Below are positions 32,552 to 42,362 of a stretch of DNA of 64,000 bases, in pieces; position 1 is the stretch's first letter, and every line of letters begins with the position of its first letter. Made by a program: the position numbers and the translations under genes. Source of the stretch: Terriglobia bacterium (GTDB taxonomy: Bacteria; Acidobacteriota; Terriglobia; Terriglobales; SCQP01); assembly GCA_021323595.1 (NCBI GenBank), contig JAJPKR010000056.1, positions 1 through 64,000 of the forward strand. Direction: 5' to 3'. The notes under the pieces are model-generated. The model was not told the DNA's origin. It worked only from the letters and a program-made list of their open reading frames with translations, and ran no database searches.

Positions 32552-32847
32552 GCGCCGCATCGCTTCGTCGTCTCGTCGGCGCTCGTTCCGCGCCGTCCCC
32601 GCGCTCCCCGCTCGCTCGGGCCCTCTCGCCGGGCCGCGCTCGGCTCGGCTCCCACGCCGCCCGCGAGTCCCAGCTCGGGCCGGGACCTCGGCGGCCGGTG
32701 CAGATCTGGCGCCGCCGGGTGGCGGTCGGCGTGCGCCGGAAGCGCCGGCTCTGCCATCCTTTAGATTGACGCCGGCTTGGGTTAACGTTGAAAATGTACT
32801 TTTAAGTCAAGATTCATCCGCCCCATGCCGGGAACCCTGACCACCTC

Positions 32848-34152
32848 ATGCTCGAACAATTTGTAATCACTCTCCGCGAGGGCATCGAAGCGGCGCTGAT
32901 CGTCGCCATCGCGCTGATTTACCTGCGCAAGATCGAGCGCAGCGATCTCAACCGTGTGGTTTACGCCGCGCTCGCGGCGGCGCTGCTGGTCAGCCTGGGC
33001 GGCGCCATCGTCCTGGCCCGGCTGCACATTTACGAGGATGACCGCATGGAGGGCTGGCTGATGCTGGTGGCCGCGATCTTCGTCGCCACCATGGTCTATT
33101 GGATGGACCGCACCGCCAAGCACCTGCGCCGCGAGATCGAGGAGAAGCTCGGGCAGTTGCTCGACGCCTCGGTCCTGGGCCTGTTCTTCTTCATCTTTTT
33201 CATGGTTCTGCGCGAGGGCATGGAGACGGTGCTGATTCTCTCCGCCGTGTCGCTCAGCACCAGTTCCCTGCTCGCCTGGTTCGGCGGCGTGCTGGGATTG
33301 GCGCTGGCGGTGCTATTCGCCATCGCCTTCATCAAGGGCAGCGTGCGCGTGAATCTAGGGCGCTTCTTCCGGATTACCAGCGTCATCTTGATCTTCATCG
33401 CCGCCCAGCTCCTGGTCACCGGCGTCCACGAACTTTCCGAAGCCGGCGTGCTGCCCTCGTCGCGGCAAGAGATGGCGCTGGTGGGGCCGATCGTGCGCAA
33501 CGATTTCTTCTTCTTCATCGTGATTCTCGGCCTGGCGGGAATCCTGCTGCTGCGCGAGAAACACGCCGCCGCGGCCGCCGCGCGTTCGCGCGTGGCCGTC
33601 GCGGTCGCCGCCGGCGGCGGCGGCGGGGGCGAAGGCGCGCCGCCGCTTTCGCCGGCGCAGCGCCGCAAACTCGCCTGGAGCGCGCGCCGCGAGCGGCTCT
33701 GGCACGGATTGGCCTATGCGACCCTTTTCCTGTGCATGGTCGCGTTTGCCGGCGAATACGTCTATGCGCGCAGCGCGCGCGCCCTCTCGCCCGCCACGCC
33801 GGTCGAGGCGCATGCCGGCCTGGTGACGATTCCTGCGGCCAAGATCAGCGACGGCTACCTGCATCGCTATGAGGCGATCACGCCGGCAGGCGCGGTGCGT
33901 TTCTTTGCCATTCGCCGTCCCGACGGCTCGCTCGCCGTCGCCCTCGATGCCTGCCAGATTTGCGGCGCCAAAGGCTACTATCAGCAGGGCAGCCAAGTGG
34001 TTTGCCGCAACTGCGACTCGCCGATCAACATCGCCTCGATCGGCGCGATCGGCGGCTGCAATCCCGTGCCGCTGGCCTACCAGCTGCGCAACGGCGCAGT
34101 CGAAATCCGCCTGGCGGCGCTGGCGTCGCAGGCCGGGCTGTTCCGAAAATAA
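32848..34152 (+). CDS. FTR1-type iron permease fused to a DUF2318 Fe-S-membrane domain
   Basis: Two RExxE motifs (TLREGIEAALIVA, LREGMETVLIL); C-terminal LDACQICGAKGYYQQGSQVVCRNCDSPINIASIGAIGGCNPVPL. Confidence 0.92.
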   Translation: MLEQFVITLREGIEAALIVAIALIYLRKIERSDLNRVVYAALAAALLVSLGGAIVLARLHIYEDDRMEGWLMLVAAIFVATMVYWMDRTAKHLRREIEEKLGQLLDASVLGLFFFIFFMVLREGMETVLILSAVSLSTSSLLAWFGGVLGLALAVLFAIAFIKGSVRVNLGRFFRITSVILIFIAAQLLVTGVHELSEAGVLPSSRQEMALVGPIVRNDFFFFIVILGLAGILLLREKHAAAAAARSRVAVAVAAGGGGGGEGAPPLSPAQRRKLAWSARRERLWHGLAYATLFLCMVAFAGEYVYARSARALSPATPVEAHAGLVTIPAAKISDGYLHRYEAITPAGAVRFFAIRRPDGSLAVALDACQICGAKGYYQQGSQVVCRNCDSPINIASIGAIGGCNPVPLAYQLRNGAVEIRLAALASQAGLFRK

Positions 34153-34167
34153 GGGAGGAGATCCTGC

Positions 34168-35478
34168 GTGTTCCGGCGCCTTTTGTGGCAAGCGTTCGCG
34201 CGGCAGCGCACTCGCAAAATCCTGGCCCTGACCGCGATCGTCGCCGGCATGACCGTGGTCACCGCCCTGCTTTCGCTGCGCGTGAGCGCCGGCGACGCGC
34301 TCAACCGCGAACTCTCGGCCTATGGCGCCAACATCTTGATTCAGCCCGCCGCCGACACCGTGCCGCTCGACCTCAATGGCGTGGACTTGCGTCCGGCCGG
34401 CGCCGGCGCCTATCTCGCCGAGGCCGACCTGGGCCGCATCAAGCAAGTCTTTTGGGCGAATAACATCACCGCCTTCGCCCCCGAACTCTTCGTGCCCGTC
34501 ACCGTGGCCGTCGCCGGCGGCGCCGCCGTCCCGGCGACGCTCGAAGGCACCTATTTCGACCGCGCGATCGCCATTCCCGGGCACGCGCATCCGTTCCGCA
34601 CCGGCCTGGAGCGCTTGGAACCGGCCTGGAGCGTGACCGGCCGCTGGCCCAGCGATCCCGCGCCGCAGCCGGATTCGGCGGCGCCGCTCGAGGCGCTCGC
34701 CGGCACGACGCTGGCAGCGCGGCTGGGCTTGCGCGCCGGCGATCGTGTTTTGGCGCGCACCGCGCACGGCTCCGAGGCGCTGGCGATCACCGGCATCGTG
34801 GCCACCGGCGCGGGCCAAGACGACGCCCTGATCGCTCCGCTCGCGGCGGCGCAGGCGCTGGCCGGCGAGCCCGGCAAGGTTCGCGACGTGCTCGTCAGCG
34901 CCATCACCAAGCCCGAGGACGCCTTCGCCCGCCAAGATCCCAACCTGCTGCCGCCCGCCGAGGCCGAGCGCTGGATGTGCTCGCCCTACGCGGTCTCCAT
35001 CGCGCGCGAGCTGCAGGACAACTTCCCCGGCAGCGCCGTCCATCCGGTGCGGCCGGTGGCCGAAACCCAAGGCGTGATCCTGCACAAGCTCGATCTGCTC
35101 ATGCTGCTGATCACCTTGTGCGCGCTCGCCGCCTGCGCCCTGGCGATCGCCAGCGCGATGAGCGCCACGCTGGTCGAGCGGCGCGGCGAGATGGCGCTGA
35201 TGCGCGCGCTCGGCGCGCGCCAGGGCGCGATCAGCGGCTTGTTTTTGGCCGAGGCGGCGGTGCTGGGCCTGATCGGCGGCCTGGCGGGCTTCGCGCTCGG
35301 CGAATGGGCGGCGGCGCGGCTGGCGCGCGGCGTGCTGGAGATGAGCGTGGGCTGGAACTGGATCGTGCTGCCGCTGATCCTCGTGCTGGCCGCCGCCGTG
35401 GTCGCCGCCGGCAGCGCCGCCGCCCTGCGCCGCGCCGCCCGCCTGGAGCCGGCGCTGCTGCTGCGGGGCGAGCTGTAG
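34168..35478 (+). CDS. FtsX/MacB-type ABC permease
   Basis: MFRRLLWQAFARQRTRKILALTAIVAGMTVVTALLSL...; C-terminal LVERRGEMALMRALGARQGAISGLFLAEAAVLGLIGGLAG. Confidence 0.9.
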   Translation: MFRRLLWQAFARQRTRKILALTAIVAGMTVVTALLSLRVSAGDALNRELSAYGANILIQPAADTVPLDLNGVDLRPAGAGAYLAEADLGRIKQVFWANNITAFAPELFVPVTVAVAGGAAVPATLEGTYFDRAIAIPGHAHPFRTGLERLEPAWSVTGRWPSDPAPQPDSAAPLEALAGTTLAARLGLRAGDRVLARTAHGSEALAITGIVATGAGQDDALIAPLAAAQALAGEPGKVRDVLVSAITKPEDAFARQDPNLLPPAEAERWMCSPYAVSIARELQDNFPGSAVHPVRPVAETQGVILHKLDLLMLLITLCALAACALAIASAMSATLVERRGEMALMRALGARQGAISGLFLAEAAVLGLIGGLAGFALGEWAAARLARGVLEMSVGWNWIVLPLILVLAAAVVAAGSAAALRRAARLEPALLLRGEL

Positions 35479-35494: not shown

Positions 35495-36667
35495 ATGAGC
35501 CGGCACCTGCCACCGCGGCTGACGACGGCGCGCTTGGCGCTGGCGGCGCTGACGCGCCGCAAGGCGCGCGTCGGCCTGGCGCTGGTGGCGCTGGGACTTG
35601 GCGCGACGCTGCTGACCGCCCTGCTGACCCTCTATGCCGGCGTGCGCCGCGACCTCAGCGGCGAATTTCGCCGCTTCGGCGCCAATATCGTGGTCACCGC
35701 CGGGGGCGGCGGCGTGCTCCTGCCCGCCGCCGCTCCCGCGCGCGCCGCCCGCGTCCTCGGCCCCGGCGTCAAAGTCGCCGGCCTGCTGGTCGAAGTCGCG
35801 CGCGTGACTGCGGCCCCTGCGCGCCCCGCGCTCGCCCCCGGCGGCGCCCGCGCCGCCGAGCTGGTGGTCGTCGGCGCCGATTGGGACGCCCTGCGCCGCC
35901 TCAACCCCACCTGGACCGTCGCCCCCGCGAGCCCCGCCGCCCTCCGCGCCGGCGGCGCCTGGATCGGCGCGCGCGCGGCCCGCGCCTTGGCCCTCCCCGC
36001 CGTCGGCACGATCACCGCCCGGCTGCGCGGCCGCGCGCACACCTGGCCGATCGCGGGCACCGTCGCCAGCGGCGCCGCCGAAGACAACCAGATCTTCGTG
36101 CCGCTCGCCGACTTGCAGGCGCTGGCCGATGAGCCCGGCATCTCGACCCTCGAAGCCGGCGTCAGCGGCGGCCCGGAAGCGATCACCGCCGCCCTCGCCG
36201 CCCTCCGCCGGGCCTTGCCCGGCGCCGTCGTCAGCCCGGTGCGGCCGATCGCCGCCACCGAGGGCCGCATTCTGCTGCGCACCCATGCGCTGCTGGTCGC
36301 GACCACCCTGCTGATCTTGCTGACGCTCGGCCTCGGCCTCGCCGCGGCGCTGGCCAGCGCCGCCCTGGAGCGCCGCCGGGAATTCGGGCTTATGCGCGCG
36401 CTCGGCGCCCGCGTCGCCGGCGTCTTCGCCCTCTTCGCCCTGGAAGCGCTGGCGCTGGGGCTGGCGGCGGCGCTGGCCGGCTTCGTGCTCGGCGGCGGCA
36501 TCGCCGCCGGGATCGCCGCTGCCGTCTTCGGCGTGCCCCTCGCTCCCGGCGCGCGCATCTTCGCGGTCACGCTGCTGGCCACCCTGGCGCTCGCCGCCCT
36601 TGCCGCGCTCGTCCCCTGGCCGGTGGTGCGCCGCGCCGCGCCCGCTACAATTTTGAAGGGAGAGTAA
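35495..36667 (+). CDS. FtsX/MacB-type ABC permease
   Basis: LAALTRRKARVGLALVALGLGATLLTALLTLYAGVRRDL...; ERRREFGLMRALGARVAGVFALFALEALALGLAAALAGF. Confidence 0.9.
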   Translation: MSRHLPPRLTTARLALAALTRRKARVGLALVALGLGATLLTALLTLYAGVRRDLSGEFRRFGANIVVTAGGGGVLLPAAAPARAARVLGPGVKVAGLLVEVARVTAAPARPALAPGGARAAELVVVGADWDALRRLNPTWTVAPASPAALRAGGAWIGARAARALALPAVGTITARLRGRAHTWPIAGTVASGAAEDNQIFVPLADLQALADEPGISTLEAGVSGGPEAITAALAALRRALPGAVVSPVRPIAATEGRILLRTHALLVATTLLILLTLGLGLAAALASAALERRREFGLMRALGARVAGVFALFALEALALGLAAALAGFVLGGGIAAGIAAAVFGVPLAPGARIFAVTLLATLALAALAALVPWPVVRRAAPATILKGE

Positions 36668-36680
36668 GCGCCGCGCCGCC

Positions 36681-37808
36681 ATGGTCGCCATTGACCTGCA
36701 AAACGTCAGCAAACGCTACCCCGGCGGCGGCCGCGGCGTGCTCGCGCTCGATTCGGTCGCCCTCAGCGTCGAAGCCGGCGAATGGCTGGCGGTGATGGGG
36801 CCCTCCGGCTCCGGCAAGACCACGCTCGTGCACCTCGTCGGCGGCCTCGAGCGCCCCACCAGCGGCAGCTTGATCGTCGCCGGCGCCGACCTCGCCGCCC
36901 TGTCACCCCGCGAGTTGGCGCGCTTTCGCGCCGAAACCATCGGCTTCGTCTTCCAGCAGTTCCATCTGGTGCCCTATCTGACCGCGCTCGAAAACGTCAT
37001 GCTGGCGCAGTACTTCCATAGCCTGGCCGATGCCGCCGAGGCGGAGGCGGCGCTGGCCGCCGTCGGGCTGGCCGACCGCGCCCGCCACCTGCCCGCGCAG
37101 CTCTCCGGCGGCGAGCAGCAGCGGGTGGTGCTGGCGCGCGCGCTGATCAACGATCCGGCCATCCTGCTCGCCGACGAGCCCACCGGCAATCTCGACGAAG
37201 ACAACGAGCTGCGCGTGCTCGAGCTGCTGCGCCGCGCCCATGCCGCCGGCAAGACCATCGTCATGGTCACCCACGATCCCACCGTCGCCAGCCTCGCCGA
37301 CCGGCGCGTGCAGTTGCATCACGGCCGCATCACCGACATCAGTTGGCTCACCGCCGGCCAGGACGAACAGTGGGACGAGATCCTCGAACAGCTCTGGATC
37401 TTGCGCGAGAACCACGAGCCCGCCATCGCCGAGAACATTCGCGTCGCCGGCCCGCTGCCGCTCGCGAACGCGCTCGACTCCATGCGCCAAGCCGGCCTGA
37501 TCGCGCCCAACGGACTCGGCTGGCGGCTGGCGCCCGAAGGCGAGCGCCGCGCCAGCGACATCATCCGCCGCCATCGCCTGGCCGAACTGCTCTTCTCCGA
37601 CACCCTGGAGTTACACGATGAGGCGCAGGTGCAGGCGCAAGCGTGTAAGTTCGAGCACATTCTCAGCCCCGAGGCGACGGCGCGGATCTGCAGCTTTCTC
37701 GGCCACCCGCGCGCCTGCCCGCACGGCAGCCCGATTCCGCTCGGCGAATGTTGCCCGCGGGAAGCCGCGGCCGTCAGTCGTTCGGCTCCGGCCGGCGAAC
37801 GAGATTGA
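36681..37808 (+). CDS. LolD/MacB-like ABC ATPase with C-terminal DtxR/IdeR-like regulator module
   Basis: [55 protein letters not shown]; then [114 protein letters not shown]. Confidence 0.9.
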
Positions 37809-37959: not shown

Positions 37960-38019
37960 CTGATAACCTGAAAAGACCGGTCGCGCAAGCAATCTTTGCC
38001 CTGGCTCGATCGTAACAGC

Positions 38020-39195
38020 ATGGTGAAAGGGAAGCGGTCAAGTCGGCGCCGCGGGGCGCATGGGGGAGTGTGGGCAGGCGCGGCGCTAGTTGCCGCGGCG
38101 CTGGCGCTGGTCGGCTGTGGCAAGGGCACCAACGCCGCCAACGCCGCCGGCGCGGGCGCGATGCGCGCCATGCCGGTCGCGGTCACGACGCTGGCGGCGC
38201 GGCCGGTGGAGCAAAGCTCGCGCTATGTCGCGACGCTCAAGTCGCGGCGCTCGGCCACCATCTACTCCCAAGTCTCCGGCTACATCCGCCGCATCGCCGT
38301 GCGCTCCGGCGATCTCGTGCGGCCCGGCCAGCTCTTGATGCTGGTGGATCCGCTCAAGCAGCAAGCCACCGTCGGCAGCCAAATCAGCGCCCGCGACGCG
38401 CAAGCCGCCACCGTGGCCTACGACTTGCAGCAGTTGCGGCGCCAGGAAGCCCTCTACGAAGCGCAGGTCGCCAGCCGCCAGGACCTCGACCAGGCGCGCG
38501 CCACCTATCAGGCGGCCAAGGCGCAGCTCGACGCGCTCGACGCGCAGGTCAAGGAGCAGCAGGTCCAGCTCGCCTATTACCACATCGCCGCGCCCATGGA
38601 GGGCATCGTCGGCGACATCCCCGTGCACGTCGGCGACCTCGTGCAGGACACCACGCCGCTGACGACGGTGGATCAGCCCGGGCCGCTGCAAGTCTACGTG
38701 TACGTGCCGGTCGAGCAAGCGCCCCGGCTGAAGCCGGGCCTGCCGGTGAAGCTGCTCGACGCCGACGACAACGTGGTCGCGCAGAGCCGCATCAACTTCA
38801 TCTCCCCGCAGGTGGATAGCGCCACGCAAACGGTGCTGGTCAAGGCCGATGTCTCCGACGACCGGGGGCGGCTGCGCAATTTGCAGTTCGTGACCGCCGA
38901 GATCGTCTGGGGCGTCGAGTCCCGCATCACGGTGCCCGTGCTCGACGTGCAGCGCCTCAACGGCATGATCTTCGCCTTTCTGGCCGAGCCGCGCGGCAAC
39001 GGCTTCGCCGCGGCGCAGGTGCCGATCCAAGTCGGGCCGATCGTGGGCAACGATTACGTCGTGCTTTCCGGCCTCAAGCCCGGCGACAAGCTGATCACCT
39101 CGGGGCTGCAGTTCCTGGTCCACGGCATGCCGGTGCTGCCGATGACCGGGCCGCCGGGCGGCGCGGGCGCGCCGGGCGGCGGCGCGCGGCGCTAG
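38020..39195 (+). CDS. RND efflux periplasmic adaptor (lipoprotein)
   Basis: Lipobox-like ALALVGCGKG; SQVSGYIRRIAVRSGDLVRPGQLLMLVDP, coiled-coil, IAAPMEGIVGDIPVHVGDLV. Confidence 0.93.
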   Translation: MVKGKRSSRRRGAHGGVWAGAALVAAALALVGCGKGTNAANAAGAGAMRAMPVAVTTLAARPVEQSSRYVATLKSRRSATIYSQVSGYIRRIAVRSGDLVRPGQLLMLVDPLKQQATVGSQISARDAQAATVAYDLQQLRRQEALYEAQVASRQDLDQARATYQAAKAQLDALDAQVKEQQVQLAYYHIAAPMEGIVGDIPVHVGDLVQDTTPLTTVDQPGPLQVYVYVPVEQAPRLKPGLPVKLLDADDNVVAQSRINFISPQVDSATQTVLVKADVSDDRGRLRNLQFVTAEIVWGVESRITVPVLDVQRLNGMIFAFLAEPRGNGFAAAQVPIQVGPIVGNDYVVLSGLKPGDKLITSGLQFLVHGMPVLPMTGPPGGAGAPGGGARR

Positions 39196-39206
39196 CGGGC
39201 GGCCTC

Positions 39207-42200
39207 ATGTTCGTTGACTTCTTCATCCGCCGGCCGATCTTCGCCAGCGTCTGCGCGCTGATCATCATCCTGGCGGGCGCGGTTTCGATCCCCACGCTGC
39301 CGGTCGCGCAGTACCCCAACCTCGCGCCGCCCACCGTCAACGTCACCGCCAACTTCATCGGCGCTAGCGCGCAAGAGGTGGAGTCCGCCGTCACCCTGCC
39401 GCTCGAGGAGGCGATCAACGGCGCCGAGGGCCTGCAATACATCACCTCCAGCAGCTCCAACTCCGGCATGGCGCAGATCACCTGCACCTTCGACGTCACC
39501 CGCGACATCGACCTCGCCGCCGTGGACGTGCAGAACCGCATCAGCACCGTCACCGGCCTGCTGCCGCCGGTGGTGCAGCAGACCGGCGTGACCGTGACCA
39601 AGGCCAACACCGGCTTTCTCGAGGTGCTGGGCTTCTACTCCGACCACAACCAATACAGCAATCTCTTCATTAGCAACTACGTGGACGTGTACGTCACCGA
39701 CGCGCTCAAGCGCGTGCCCGGCGTCGCCAACGTCGTCGTCTTCGGCCAGCGCACCTACGCCATGCGCATTTGGCTCGACCCCCTGCGCCTGGCCGGCCGC
39801 GGCCTCACCGCCAGCGACGTCATCGCCGCCTTGCAGGAGCAAAACGTCGAAATCGCCGCCGGCGCCGTCGGCCAGCCGCCCGCGCCCAGCGGCCAGGCCT
39901 ACCAGTTCAGCGTCCGCGCCGCCGGCCGGCTCACCGATCCCGCGCAGTTCGACAACATCGTCCTCAAAACCGACCGGAACGGCACCATCGTCAAGCTCAG
40001 CGACGTCGGCTACGCGCAATTGGGCGCCGAAAACTACGGCTCGAACCTCGAATACAACGGGGTTCCCACCGTCGGCCTGGCCATCCAGCAGCTGTCCACG
40101 GCCAACGCCATGGACGTCGCCCAGGGCGTCAACGCCACCCTGGCGCAGCTCGCGCCCCGCTTCCCGCCCGGCCTCCACTACATCACCGCGGTGGATAGCA
40201 CCGAGGTCGTCCGCGAATCCATGCGCGACGTGCTGATCACGCTGCTCGAGGCGATCATCATCGTCATCGTCGTGATCTTCCTCTTCTTGCAGGATTGGCG
40301 CACCACGCTGATCCCCTCGATCACGATCCCCGTGGCGCTGATCGGCACCTTCGCCTTCATTCGCCTGTTCAATTTCTCGATCAACACGCTGACCATGTTC
40401 GGCATCGTCTTGGCGACCGGCCTGGTCGTGGATGACGCCATCGTGGTCATCGAGAACGTCGAGCGCCACATCTCCGAGGGCGTCACCGAGCCCCACCGCG
40501 CCGCCTCCATCGCCATGAGCGAGGTGACCAGCGCGGTGATCGCCACCTCGCTGGTGCTGATCGCCGTCTTCGTGCCCGTGGCCCTGTTTCCCGGCACCAC
40601 CGGCATCCTCTTCCGCCAGTTCGCGCTGACCATCGCCTTCTCCATCGCCATCAGCGCCTTCAATGCGCTGACGCTCTCGCCGGCCCTGGCCGCCCTGCTG
40701 CTGCGCGAGCATCACGAGAAGGCGGCGTTCTGGAAGTTCATCCAGGCCGGCATCGAGGGCCTCACGCACGGCTATCGCCGCGTGCTGCACGGCGTGGCGC
40801 GCTGGCGCTGGGTGGCGGCGCTGGCGTTCCTCGGCACGCTCGTGGCCGCCTACTTCGTGTTCCTGGCCGTGCCCCGCGGCTTCATCCCCACCGAGGATCA
40901 GGGCTACATCATCCTCAACATTCAAGCGCCGCCGGGCGCCTCGCTCAGCTATACCGGCGGTGTCGCCAAGCAGGCCATGGCGCTGCTGCGCCGCCAGCCC
41001 GAGGTGCTCGGCGCCTTCGCCGTGACCGGCTTCAGCTTCGCCGGCGGCGGCTCCAACACCGGCCTCGTCTTCGTGCGGCTGAAGCCCTACGGCCAGCGCG
41101 TGGGACCGCAGCACTCCTCCCACGCGCTGGTGGCGCGTCTCCAGCCGCTGCTGTTCGGCATCCCCGGCGCCACCGTCGTCGCCTTCGAGCCGCCGCCCAT
41201 TCCCGGCATCGCCTCCCTTGGCGGCTTCCAGTTCGAAGTGCTCGACCAGAGCAACGCCACGCCCCAGCAGCTCTACGCCGCCGCGCAGGGGCTGATCCGG
41301 GCGGCGCGCAGCGATCCCAAGCTCACCGGCATGTTCAGCGGCTTCACCGCCAACGACCCGCAGATCCAGGTCAATATCGATCGCGACAAGGCGAAGGCGC
41401 TGCAAGTGCCGATCAACGATATCAGCGCCGCCTTGCAGACCTATCTCGGCTCGGCCTACGTCAACCAGTTCGACTTCAACAACCGCTCCTACCGGGTTTA
41501 CGTGCAGGCGGAGGCCCGCTTCCGCGATCGCGCCTCTGACATCAACGAGTTCTATGTCCGCTCCGGCAACGGCCAGATGGTGCCGCTGCGCGATCTGGTG
41601 CAGATCGAAAATACCGCCGCCCCGCAGGTGATCAATCACTACGATCTGTTCCGCTCCGCCGAAATTGACGGCAGCGCCGCCCCCGGCTACAGCAGCGGCC
41701 AGGCGATCTCGGAGATGGAGGCGCTGGCGCGTCGCGTGCTGCCGCAGGGCATGAGCTTCGCCTGGACCGGCTTGGCGCTGCAAGAAATCCAGTCCGGCAG
41801 CAAGGCGCTGCTGCTCTTCGTGCTCGGGTTGCTGGTCGTCTATCTGACGCTCTCGGCGCAATACGAGAGCTGGGTGCTGCCCTTCATCGTCATGCTGGCC
41901 GTGCCGGCTGCGCTGCTGGGCGCGCTCGGCGCGCAGGCGATGCGCGGCTTGCAGGACGACATCTATTGCCAGATCGGCTTGGTCATGCTCATCGGCCTCT
42001 CGACCAAGAACGCGATCCTGATCGTCGAGTTCGCCGAGCAACTGCGCGACCGCGGCCTGAACTTGGTCGAGGCGGCGATCGAAGCCGGCCGCATCCGCCT
42101 GCGGCCGATCTTGATGACCTCGATCGCCTTCATGCTCGGCATCCTGCCCTTGGTCGTGGCCAGCGGCGCCGGTTCCGCGGGACGGCATTCGGTGGGCACG

Positions 42201-42362
42201 GCGGTGTTCGGCGGCATGCTGCTGGCCACGATCCTCAACCTATTCTTTATTCCTGCCCTGTATCTCATTGTGCGCAGTGTCTTTCACGGACGCTCTCACC
42301 GCCACGGCGCGATTCCGCCCGGCGATCCCGAGGCGCCGCTCGCGCCGCAAACCACGCAGTAA
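39207..42362 (+). CDS. RND efflux inner-membrane transporter (HAE1/AcrB family)
   Basis: MFVDFFIRRPIFASVCALIIILAGAVSIPTLPVAQYPNLAPPTVNVTANFIGASAQEVESAVTLPLEEAINGAEGLQYITSSSSNSG; VVDDAIVVIENVERHISEG. Confidence 0.98.
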   Translation: MFVDFFIRRPIFASVCALIIILAGAVSIPTLPVAQYPNLAPPTVNVTANFIGASAQEVESAVTLPLEEAINGAEGLQYITSSSSNSGMAQITCTFDVTRDIDLAAVDVQNRISTVTGLLPPVVQQTGVTVTKANTGFLEVLGFYSDHNQYSNLFISNYVDVYVTDALKRVPGVANVVVFGQRTYAMRIWLDPLRLAGRGLTASDVIAALQEQNVEIAAGAVGQPPAPSGQAYQFSVRAAGRLTDPAQFDNIVLKTDRNGTIVKLSDVGYAQLGAENYGSNLEYNGVPTVGLAIQQLSTANAMDVAQGVNATLAQLAPRFPPGLHYITAVDSTEVVRESMRDVLITLLEAIIIVIVVIFLFLQDWRTTLIPSITIPVALIGTFAFIRLFNFSINTLTMFGIVLATGLVVDDAIVVIENVERHISEGVTEPHRAASIAMSEVTSAVIATSLVLIAVFVPVALFPGTTGILFRQFALTIAFSIAISAFNALTLSPALAALLLREHHEKAAFWKFIQAGIEGLTHGYRRVLHGVARWRWVAALAFLGTLVAAYFVFLAVPRGFIPTEDQGYIILNIQAPPGASLSYTGGVAKQAMALLRRQPEVLGAFAVTGFSFAGGGSNTGLVFVRLKPYGQRVGPQHSSHALVARLQPLLFGIPGATVVAFEPPPIPGIASLGGFQFEVLDQSNATPQQLYAAAQGLIRAARSDPKLTGMFSGFTANDPQIQVNIDRDKAKALQVPINDISAALQTYLGSAYVNQFDFNNRSYRVYVQAEARFRDRASDINEFYVRSGNGQMVPLRDLVQIENTAAPQVINHYDLFRSAEIDGSAAPGYSSGQAISEMEALARRVLPQGMSFAWTGLALQEIQSGSKALLLFVLGLLVVYLTLSAQYESWVLPFIVMLAVPAALLGALGAQAMRGLQDDIYCQIGLVMLIGLSTKNAILIVEFAEQLRDRGLNLVEAAIEAGRIRLRPILMTSIAFMLGILPLVVASGAGSAGRHSVGTAVFGGMLLATILNLFFIPALYLIVRSVFHGRSHRHGAIPPGDPEAPLAPQTTQ

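Follow-up and report, generated by a model that had tools for sequence, protein, structure and literature searches.

A predicted DtxR-type metal-sensing domain fused to the FetD-like ATPase of a putative iron-uptake operon in Acidobacteriota

What is a domain known from metal-dependent repressors doing at the end of a transporter ATPase? The question is raised by one open reading frame of a Terriglobia bacterium (assembly GCA_021323595.1), located in the window, that is, the whole stretch of 64,000 nucleotides that was analysed (contig JAJPKR010000056.1, positions 1 to 64,000, forward strand). On balance we favour the reading that a Fet ATPase acquired a DtxR-type metal-binding and dimerisation domain as a C-terminal regulatory domain, through which Fe(II) would gate the ATPase, and that this domain is no repressor. 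The gene and its parts are the following.

36681..37808, + strand: ABC ATPase-sensor gene, 375 residues, FetD-like ATPase with a C-terminal DtxR-type metal sensor (Pfam; fusion kept in other genomes)
36681..37346, + strand: ABC ATPase part, residues 1-222 (PF00005; alignment; 55% identity to the unfused 231-residue E. coli FetD)
37350..37409, + strand: sensor helix 1, residues 224-243, with E233, E236 and the invariant E243 (AlphaFold2; alignment)
37428..37490, + strand: degenerate helix-turn-helix, with helix 2 a 3-residue stub (250-252) and helix 3 at 261-270 (AlphaFold2; no PF01325)
37500..37529, + strand: wing strands, residues 274-277 and 280-283 (AlphaFold2)
37533..37739, + strand: metal-binding and dimerisation domain, residues 285-353, with H298, E302, C322, E325 and H326 (PF02742; Foldseek to IdeR/DtxR)
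37689..37754, + strand: invariant Cys/His set C337, H342, C346, H348, C357 and C358 (alignment)

Architecture and predicted fold of the fused protein

The frame is open over its 375 codons, with zero internal stops, and a Pfam search of it returns both ABC_tran (PF00005; residues 23-168, E=7.2e-34) and Fe_dep_repr_C (PF02742; residues 285-353, E=1.9e-23, 82.7 bits, the cut-off being 27 bits), which bears out the initial annotation of a complete ABC ATPase running in frame into a DtxR-type metal domain. Residues 1-222 belong by Pfam to the MacB/LolD/FetD type of ABC ATPases, and the catalytic motifs are intact: Walker A, Q-loop, LSGGE, Walker B with E166, and H198 are invariant in an alignment of 55 homologs. 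One marginal match aside, the C-terminal tail retrieves repressors of the DtxR/IdeR/SloR/MntR type from the PDB sequences (best E=7e-14). AlphaFold2 models the tail alone with a mean pLDDT of 88.5 and the whole ATPase-sensor protein with 90.3, and all 50 Foldseek matches listed against the PDB are again DtxR/IdeR/SloR/MntR-type repressors (best E=6.8e-9), superposed typically at 2.1-2.5 Å over about 128 columns, with TM values of 0.75-0.82 for the sensor over two-domain DtxR/IdeR structures. The resemblance to DtxR expected from the initial annotation was thus recovered in the predicted structure, the comparisons with DtxR resting on the PDB sequence search and Foldseek, and the PF02742 score together with the fold match rules out a chance likeness of the tail. 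In the AlphaFold2 model the first sensor helix begins one residue past the last ABC strand, and a linker between the ATPase and the sensor is therefore predicted to be absent.

The operon and its assignment to the Fet systems

The fused gene is preceded on the same strand by three genes and a promoter-proximal stretch.

32788..32810, + strand: promoter-proximal stretch where related operons have their Fur box, which is lost here (6 mismatches)
32848..34152, + strand: FTR1 iron permease fused to a periplasmic Cys-rich FtrD/DUF2318 domain (PF03239 E=2.1e-38; PF10080 E=1.2e-29)
34168..35478, + strand: FtsX/MacB-type permease 1, FetB-like (PF02687, PF12704; 38% full-length identity to an E. coli Fet permease)
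35495..36667, + strand: FtsX/MacB-type permease 2, FetC-like (PF02687, PF12704; 31% identity to the second E. coli Fet permease)

The order FTR1-FtrD, FtsX, FtsX, ATPase recurs in dozens of related loci and resembles that of the FetMP-FetABCDEF/P19 systems. FTR1, FtrD/DUF2318, two FtsX permeases and a MacB/LolD-type ATPase, the hallmark of a Fet system, are all found in this single operon, which by its gene content is a Fet-type (FetABCD) iron-uptake system with the ATPase as its FetD subunit. The initial annotation of an FtsX-class exporter or importer is thereby kept as to class and narrowed to Fet iron uptake, and its view that the motor of a transporter carries a DtxR-type metal-sensor domain is upheld, now within an iron-transport operon. 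The operon departs from the E. coli plasmid cluster in several respects. The product of 32848..34152 joins in one protein the permease part of FetM (30% identity to the plasmid FTR1) and the FtrD part of FetA (41% over 146 residues to the plasmid FtrD protein), and no thioredoxin was seen in the operon. Periplasmic P19/FetP was not found in the genome by PF10634, which makes a complete FetMP system less likely and leaves the FetABCD assignment unaffected. Finally, the sensor of about 150 residues has no counterpart in the E. coli plasmid FetD, whose alignment ends at window residue 216, just short of the sensor.

The fusion travels with the permeases. In the phylum sample described below, the distance between the fused gene and an FtrD gene is 3.2-3.7 kb in 21/21 cases, and genus g2, the only one whose operon is split, keeps both halves. 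In that genus (L033, L035, L173, L174) the ATPase-sensor gene stands apart from FTR1/FtsX and adjoins a gene for an NADH dehydrogenase subunit. In the window, separate RND efflux genes, a HlyD-type adaptor and an AcrB-type pump, follow downstream at 37996-42362.

Occurrence of the fusion and nearest relatives

The alignment of the tail was scanned against 84,980 species genomes, yielding 190 confirmed relatives, the best 80 of which are all from Acidobacteriota. The ATPase-sensor frame is continuous, with Walker A and LSGG in the same open reading frame, in 71/80 of these loci, which come from other assemblies; among the remaining nine, two have Walker A, six are ended by contig edges and in one, L070, the gene is interrupted. 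Sampling 297 Acidobacteriota genomes evenly gave 21 fused loci among the 30 read, spread over several families. A sequencing frameshift joining two separate genes, to which the initial annotation had pointed as a possible refutation, is excluded, since the fusion recurs across numerous assemblies and in several families. An iron-uptake motor protein with a built-in DtxR-type sensing half thus appears, from the sequences, to occur in many Acidobacteriota, and in the open-access literature no paper describing an ABC-DtxR fusion within a Fet operon was found. In the phage and plasmid collections the fusion was not noticed among the matches listed, which consisted of ordinary DtxR proteins, stretches lacking annotation and one sensor linked to FeoB. 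Two loci have unusual arrangements: an interrupted ATPase-sensor gene at L070:7614-8510 and a second ATPase copy at L080:6719-7976.

The sensor-domain tree unites the fused proteins in a single group (support 93/86), placed beside and within proteins that combine the sensor with FeoA. The nearest unfused relatives are accordingly judged to be these DtxR-FeoA proteins, encoded beside feoB in most of the cases examined; they stand directly beside it in the Acidobacteriota loci L141, L142, L143, L144, L145, L146 and L157. The FeoB-linked proteins share the metal domain of the fused ones, nine Acidobacteriota members having every invariant Cys and His, and their PF01325 match is absent or weak; they differ in being separate proteins with a FeoA domain, in contrast to the ABC ATPase fusion described here. 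The three FetD orthologs examined in genus g9 show 61-64% identity over the ATPase and stop without a sensor, and since sensor-less FetD exists there the sensor is regarded as an add-on domain. One fusion event with later loss in genus g9 would be the parsimonious reading.

A hybrid metal site and additional cysteines and histidines

The RHRLAE and CxxEH signatures pointed out in the initial annotation are present and contribute H298 and E302, equivalent to DtxR H79 and E83, and C322, E325 and H326, equivalent to C102, E105 and H106. Their conservation in an alignment of 101 fused proteins is nearly complete (H298 in 96, E302 in 101, C322 in 100, E325 in 101 and H326 in 101). The same holds for the carboxylates of sensor helix 1, which the initial annotation had not included: E233 is kept in 96, E236 in 99 and E243 in 101 of these proteins. 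E233 and E236 occupy the DtxR positions M10 and R13, which we take to be the positions of the MntR ligands D8 and E11. At the position of DtxR His98, 91 of the 101 fused proteins have Glu and the window has Gln. Thus, the metal site is a hybrid, DtxR-like in Cys322, MntR-like in E233/E236 and with H98 replaced, and the earlier assignment to the iron type rather than the manganese type is correct in part. Because iron-type and manganese-type features are mixed, the metal cannot be named from sequence; Mn, Co, Ni, Zn or an Fe-S cluster could be bound as alternatives to Fe.

A further set of residues unmentioned in the initial annotation, C337, H342, C346, H348, C357 and C358, is invariant in 101/101 fused proteins and in 9/9 FeoA-type sensors, has no equivalent in DtxR/IdeR and possibly forms a second metal or Fe-S site. 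This set lends itself to two readings other than metal gating of the ATPase. In the first, which we consider rather improbable, the domain is an iron acceptor that takes imported Fe(II) at the membrane and either relays it or links it to the consumption of ATP, thereby supporting transport and not limiting it. A His/Cys-rich insert in the wing of relatives would suit such a role, as would the occurrence of the same module next to FeoB; the ligand set that has been kept is, however, that of a sensor, and the FetD orthologs of g9 are without the domain. In the second, which is unlikely, the invariant cysteines (C337, C346, C357 and C358 in both fused and FeoA-type proteins) bind a cluster, and oxygen or the status of the cluster sets activity or protein stability. 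There is a parallel in FeoC, a winged-helix protein (PMC7762939) whose Fe-S cluster controls the stability of FeoB (PMC10710835), but the mononuclear ligands of the DtxR type are conserved in the fused proteins just as well as the cysteines.

Degeneration of the helix-turn-helix

The domain corresponding to the DNA-binding part of the repressors has fared differently from the metal domain. Whether AlphaFold2 is given the tail or the whole protein, helix 2 shrinks to residues 250-252. PF01325, the N-terminal winged-helix family of DtxR/MntR proteins, does not match the window protein at E<=1 or any of three further fused proteins at E<=0.1, whereas it reaches 39 bits in two classic DtxRs from the same order. 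The winged-helix-like segment of the initial annotation is therefore there as a remnant, in degenerate form, and of the three-family architecture that it proposed ABC_tran and Fe_dep_repr_C are found and the PF01325 family is not matched. When distant fused proteins are compared, the helix-turn-helix region is 22% identical and the metal domain 61%; for a divergent pair of classic DtxRs the figures are 24% and 38%. IdeR contacts bases through S37, P39, T40 and Q43 (PMC8464063), of which the window retains only P39 in an ungapped alignment and the fused consensus none. The net charge of the region is +2.4 in classic DtxRs and -8.6 in most fused Terriglobales, but averages +0.2 in the window's family (-3 in the window itself). 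Charge by itself is a weak argument against DNA binding in a subfamily with a near-neutral helix-turn-helix, and it was dropped as a stand-alone argument there. The helix-turn-helix has thus decayed while the metal ligands stayed. In addition to this collapse, the fused proteins differ from DtxR/IdeR in being attached to an ATPase and in having no FeoA/SH3 domain. The wing insert (HPxxPHxHKxxxNxCH) occurs in most Terriglobales (L007-L012 and most of L036-L110) and is absent in the window's family.

Transcriptional control of the operon

A motif, TTGAAATTGAAATTCATTTTCAA, stands upstream of FTR1 in 44/53 related loci with at most 3 mismatches, while shuffled sequences never come closer to it than 8 mismatches. 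In G020, a relative that contains Fur, the same motif precedes the operon and is found again about 50 bp ahead of fur, for which reason we read it as a Fur box. Within the window's family, G000, G003 and G004 have no such box, and no Fur-family match was obtained in any of the six fusion-bearing genomes (G000, G001, G003, G004, G006 and G008, two of them <90% complete). Neither a separate DtxR nor a Fur copy was found in the host genome, and G000, G003 and G004 have no PF02742 protein, and no recognised protein of the Fur/DtxR type, other than the fused one. The window's family has lost fur and the box yet retains the fusion, which is thus kept with or without Fur, and this independence indicates a role other than repression of the operon. 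As an autorepressor site, the strong conserved motif recovered by a palindrome search before the operon was rejected, being the Fur box, which the window's family does not have. Two groups of loci depart from the common pattern: the promoters of L051, L067 and L109 have a palindrome of the type TTGCAACTNAGTTGCAA upstream of FTR1 in place of the Fur box, and genus g9 (L210, L211, L212), with its sensor-less FetD, has another conserved element, TTGACGACCAAWTTAGTCCKCA, at that place.

These observations bear on a reading in which the iron-loaded sensor, either after cleavage or while still part of the ATPase protein, represses the operon by binding DNA. The direct precedent is YtgC-YtgR of Chlamydia, a metal transporter subunit with a C-terminal DtxR-type domain that gives rise to a repressor, where DNA binding and cleavage have been reported (PMC5599777), and being the sole Fur/DtxR-type sensor in G000, G003 and G004 leaves the fused domain room for a transcriptional role in the Fur-less group. 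YtgC is, however, a permease of another transporter class, whereas here the ATPase carries the sensor; the helix-turn-helix is degenerate both in sequence and in the model, the modelled protein would offer no linker for cleavage, the promoters of the window's family share no inverted repeat that we could find, and most related operons are preceded by a Fur box. Repression by the fused domain is consequently improbable, and the suggestion in the initial annotation that the ATPase moonlights as the repressor of its operon is not sustained, given the degenerate helix-turn-helix and the presence of the related operons' upstream box before fur as well.

Metal gating of the ATPase

If the domain is instead a regulatory one that gates the ATPase, as we favour, the ATPase homodimer would sit under the two FtsX permeases and the two sensors would pair as they do in DtxR, an arrangement that is possible because dimers are the working form of ABC ATPases and the DtxR domain dimerises too. 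Binding of cytoplasmic Fe(II) would shift the arrangement of the sensors and thereby switch ATP hydrolysis. Regulatory domains fused to ATPases are a known mode of control, and in MetN and ModC a substrate-loaded C-terminal domain can stop ATP hydrolysis (PMC10710835). The likeness to the MetN C2 and ModC C-terminal domains lies in a regulatory-type domain placed C-terminally on an ABC ATPase whose catalytic motifs are intact (PMC10710835); folds, ligands and transporter type differ, and regulation of the Fet ATPase would be by analogy. With this precedent, iron-dependent inhibition is the favoured and most likely direction, high iron turning the ATPase off as in trans-inhibition. Such control would be post-translational and would be added to Fur, or would replace it in the window's Fur-less clade. 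A passive remnant serving solely the dimerisation or stability of the ATPase is very improbable, for the near-complete ligand conservation in 101 proteins is unexpected of a scaffold, even if the same domain dimerises DtxR and one fused homolog, L216, has lost its CxxEH ligands. The latter (L216:4758-5726, genome G240) is a distant ATPase-sensor fusion that has kept CPHG.

The fusion suggests that the transporter may measure iron itself, beyond gene regulation alone. Metal gating, if true, would mean that a DtxR domain controls a transporter without DNA. In Campylobacter each of fetA-D is required for normal growth under iron limitation, while what the FetBCD ABC transporter contributes is unknown (PMC10783030); the built-in sensor predicts that the FetD ATPase responds to cytoplasmic metal and so provides a handle on that role. 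Quite possibly, and we propose it tentatively, a DtxR-type module that no longer binds DNA regulates iron transporters directly in two settings, as a FeoA-linked protein next to FeoB and as part of the FetD ATPase. DtxR control would then have an equivalent that acts after translation, and lineages without Fur would retain it as their only recognised iron control of the Fur/DtxR type. Some of the proteins annotated as metal-dependent transcriptional regulators beside feoB may then be partners of the transporter. A sensor-FeoA protein beside feoB on the Pelobacter propionicus plasmid pPRO1 (L178:6004-6663) is annotated as a transcriptional regulator.
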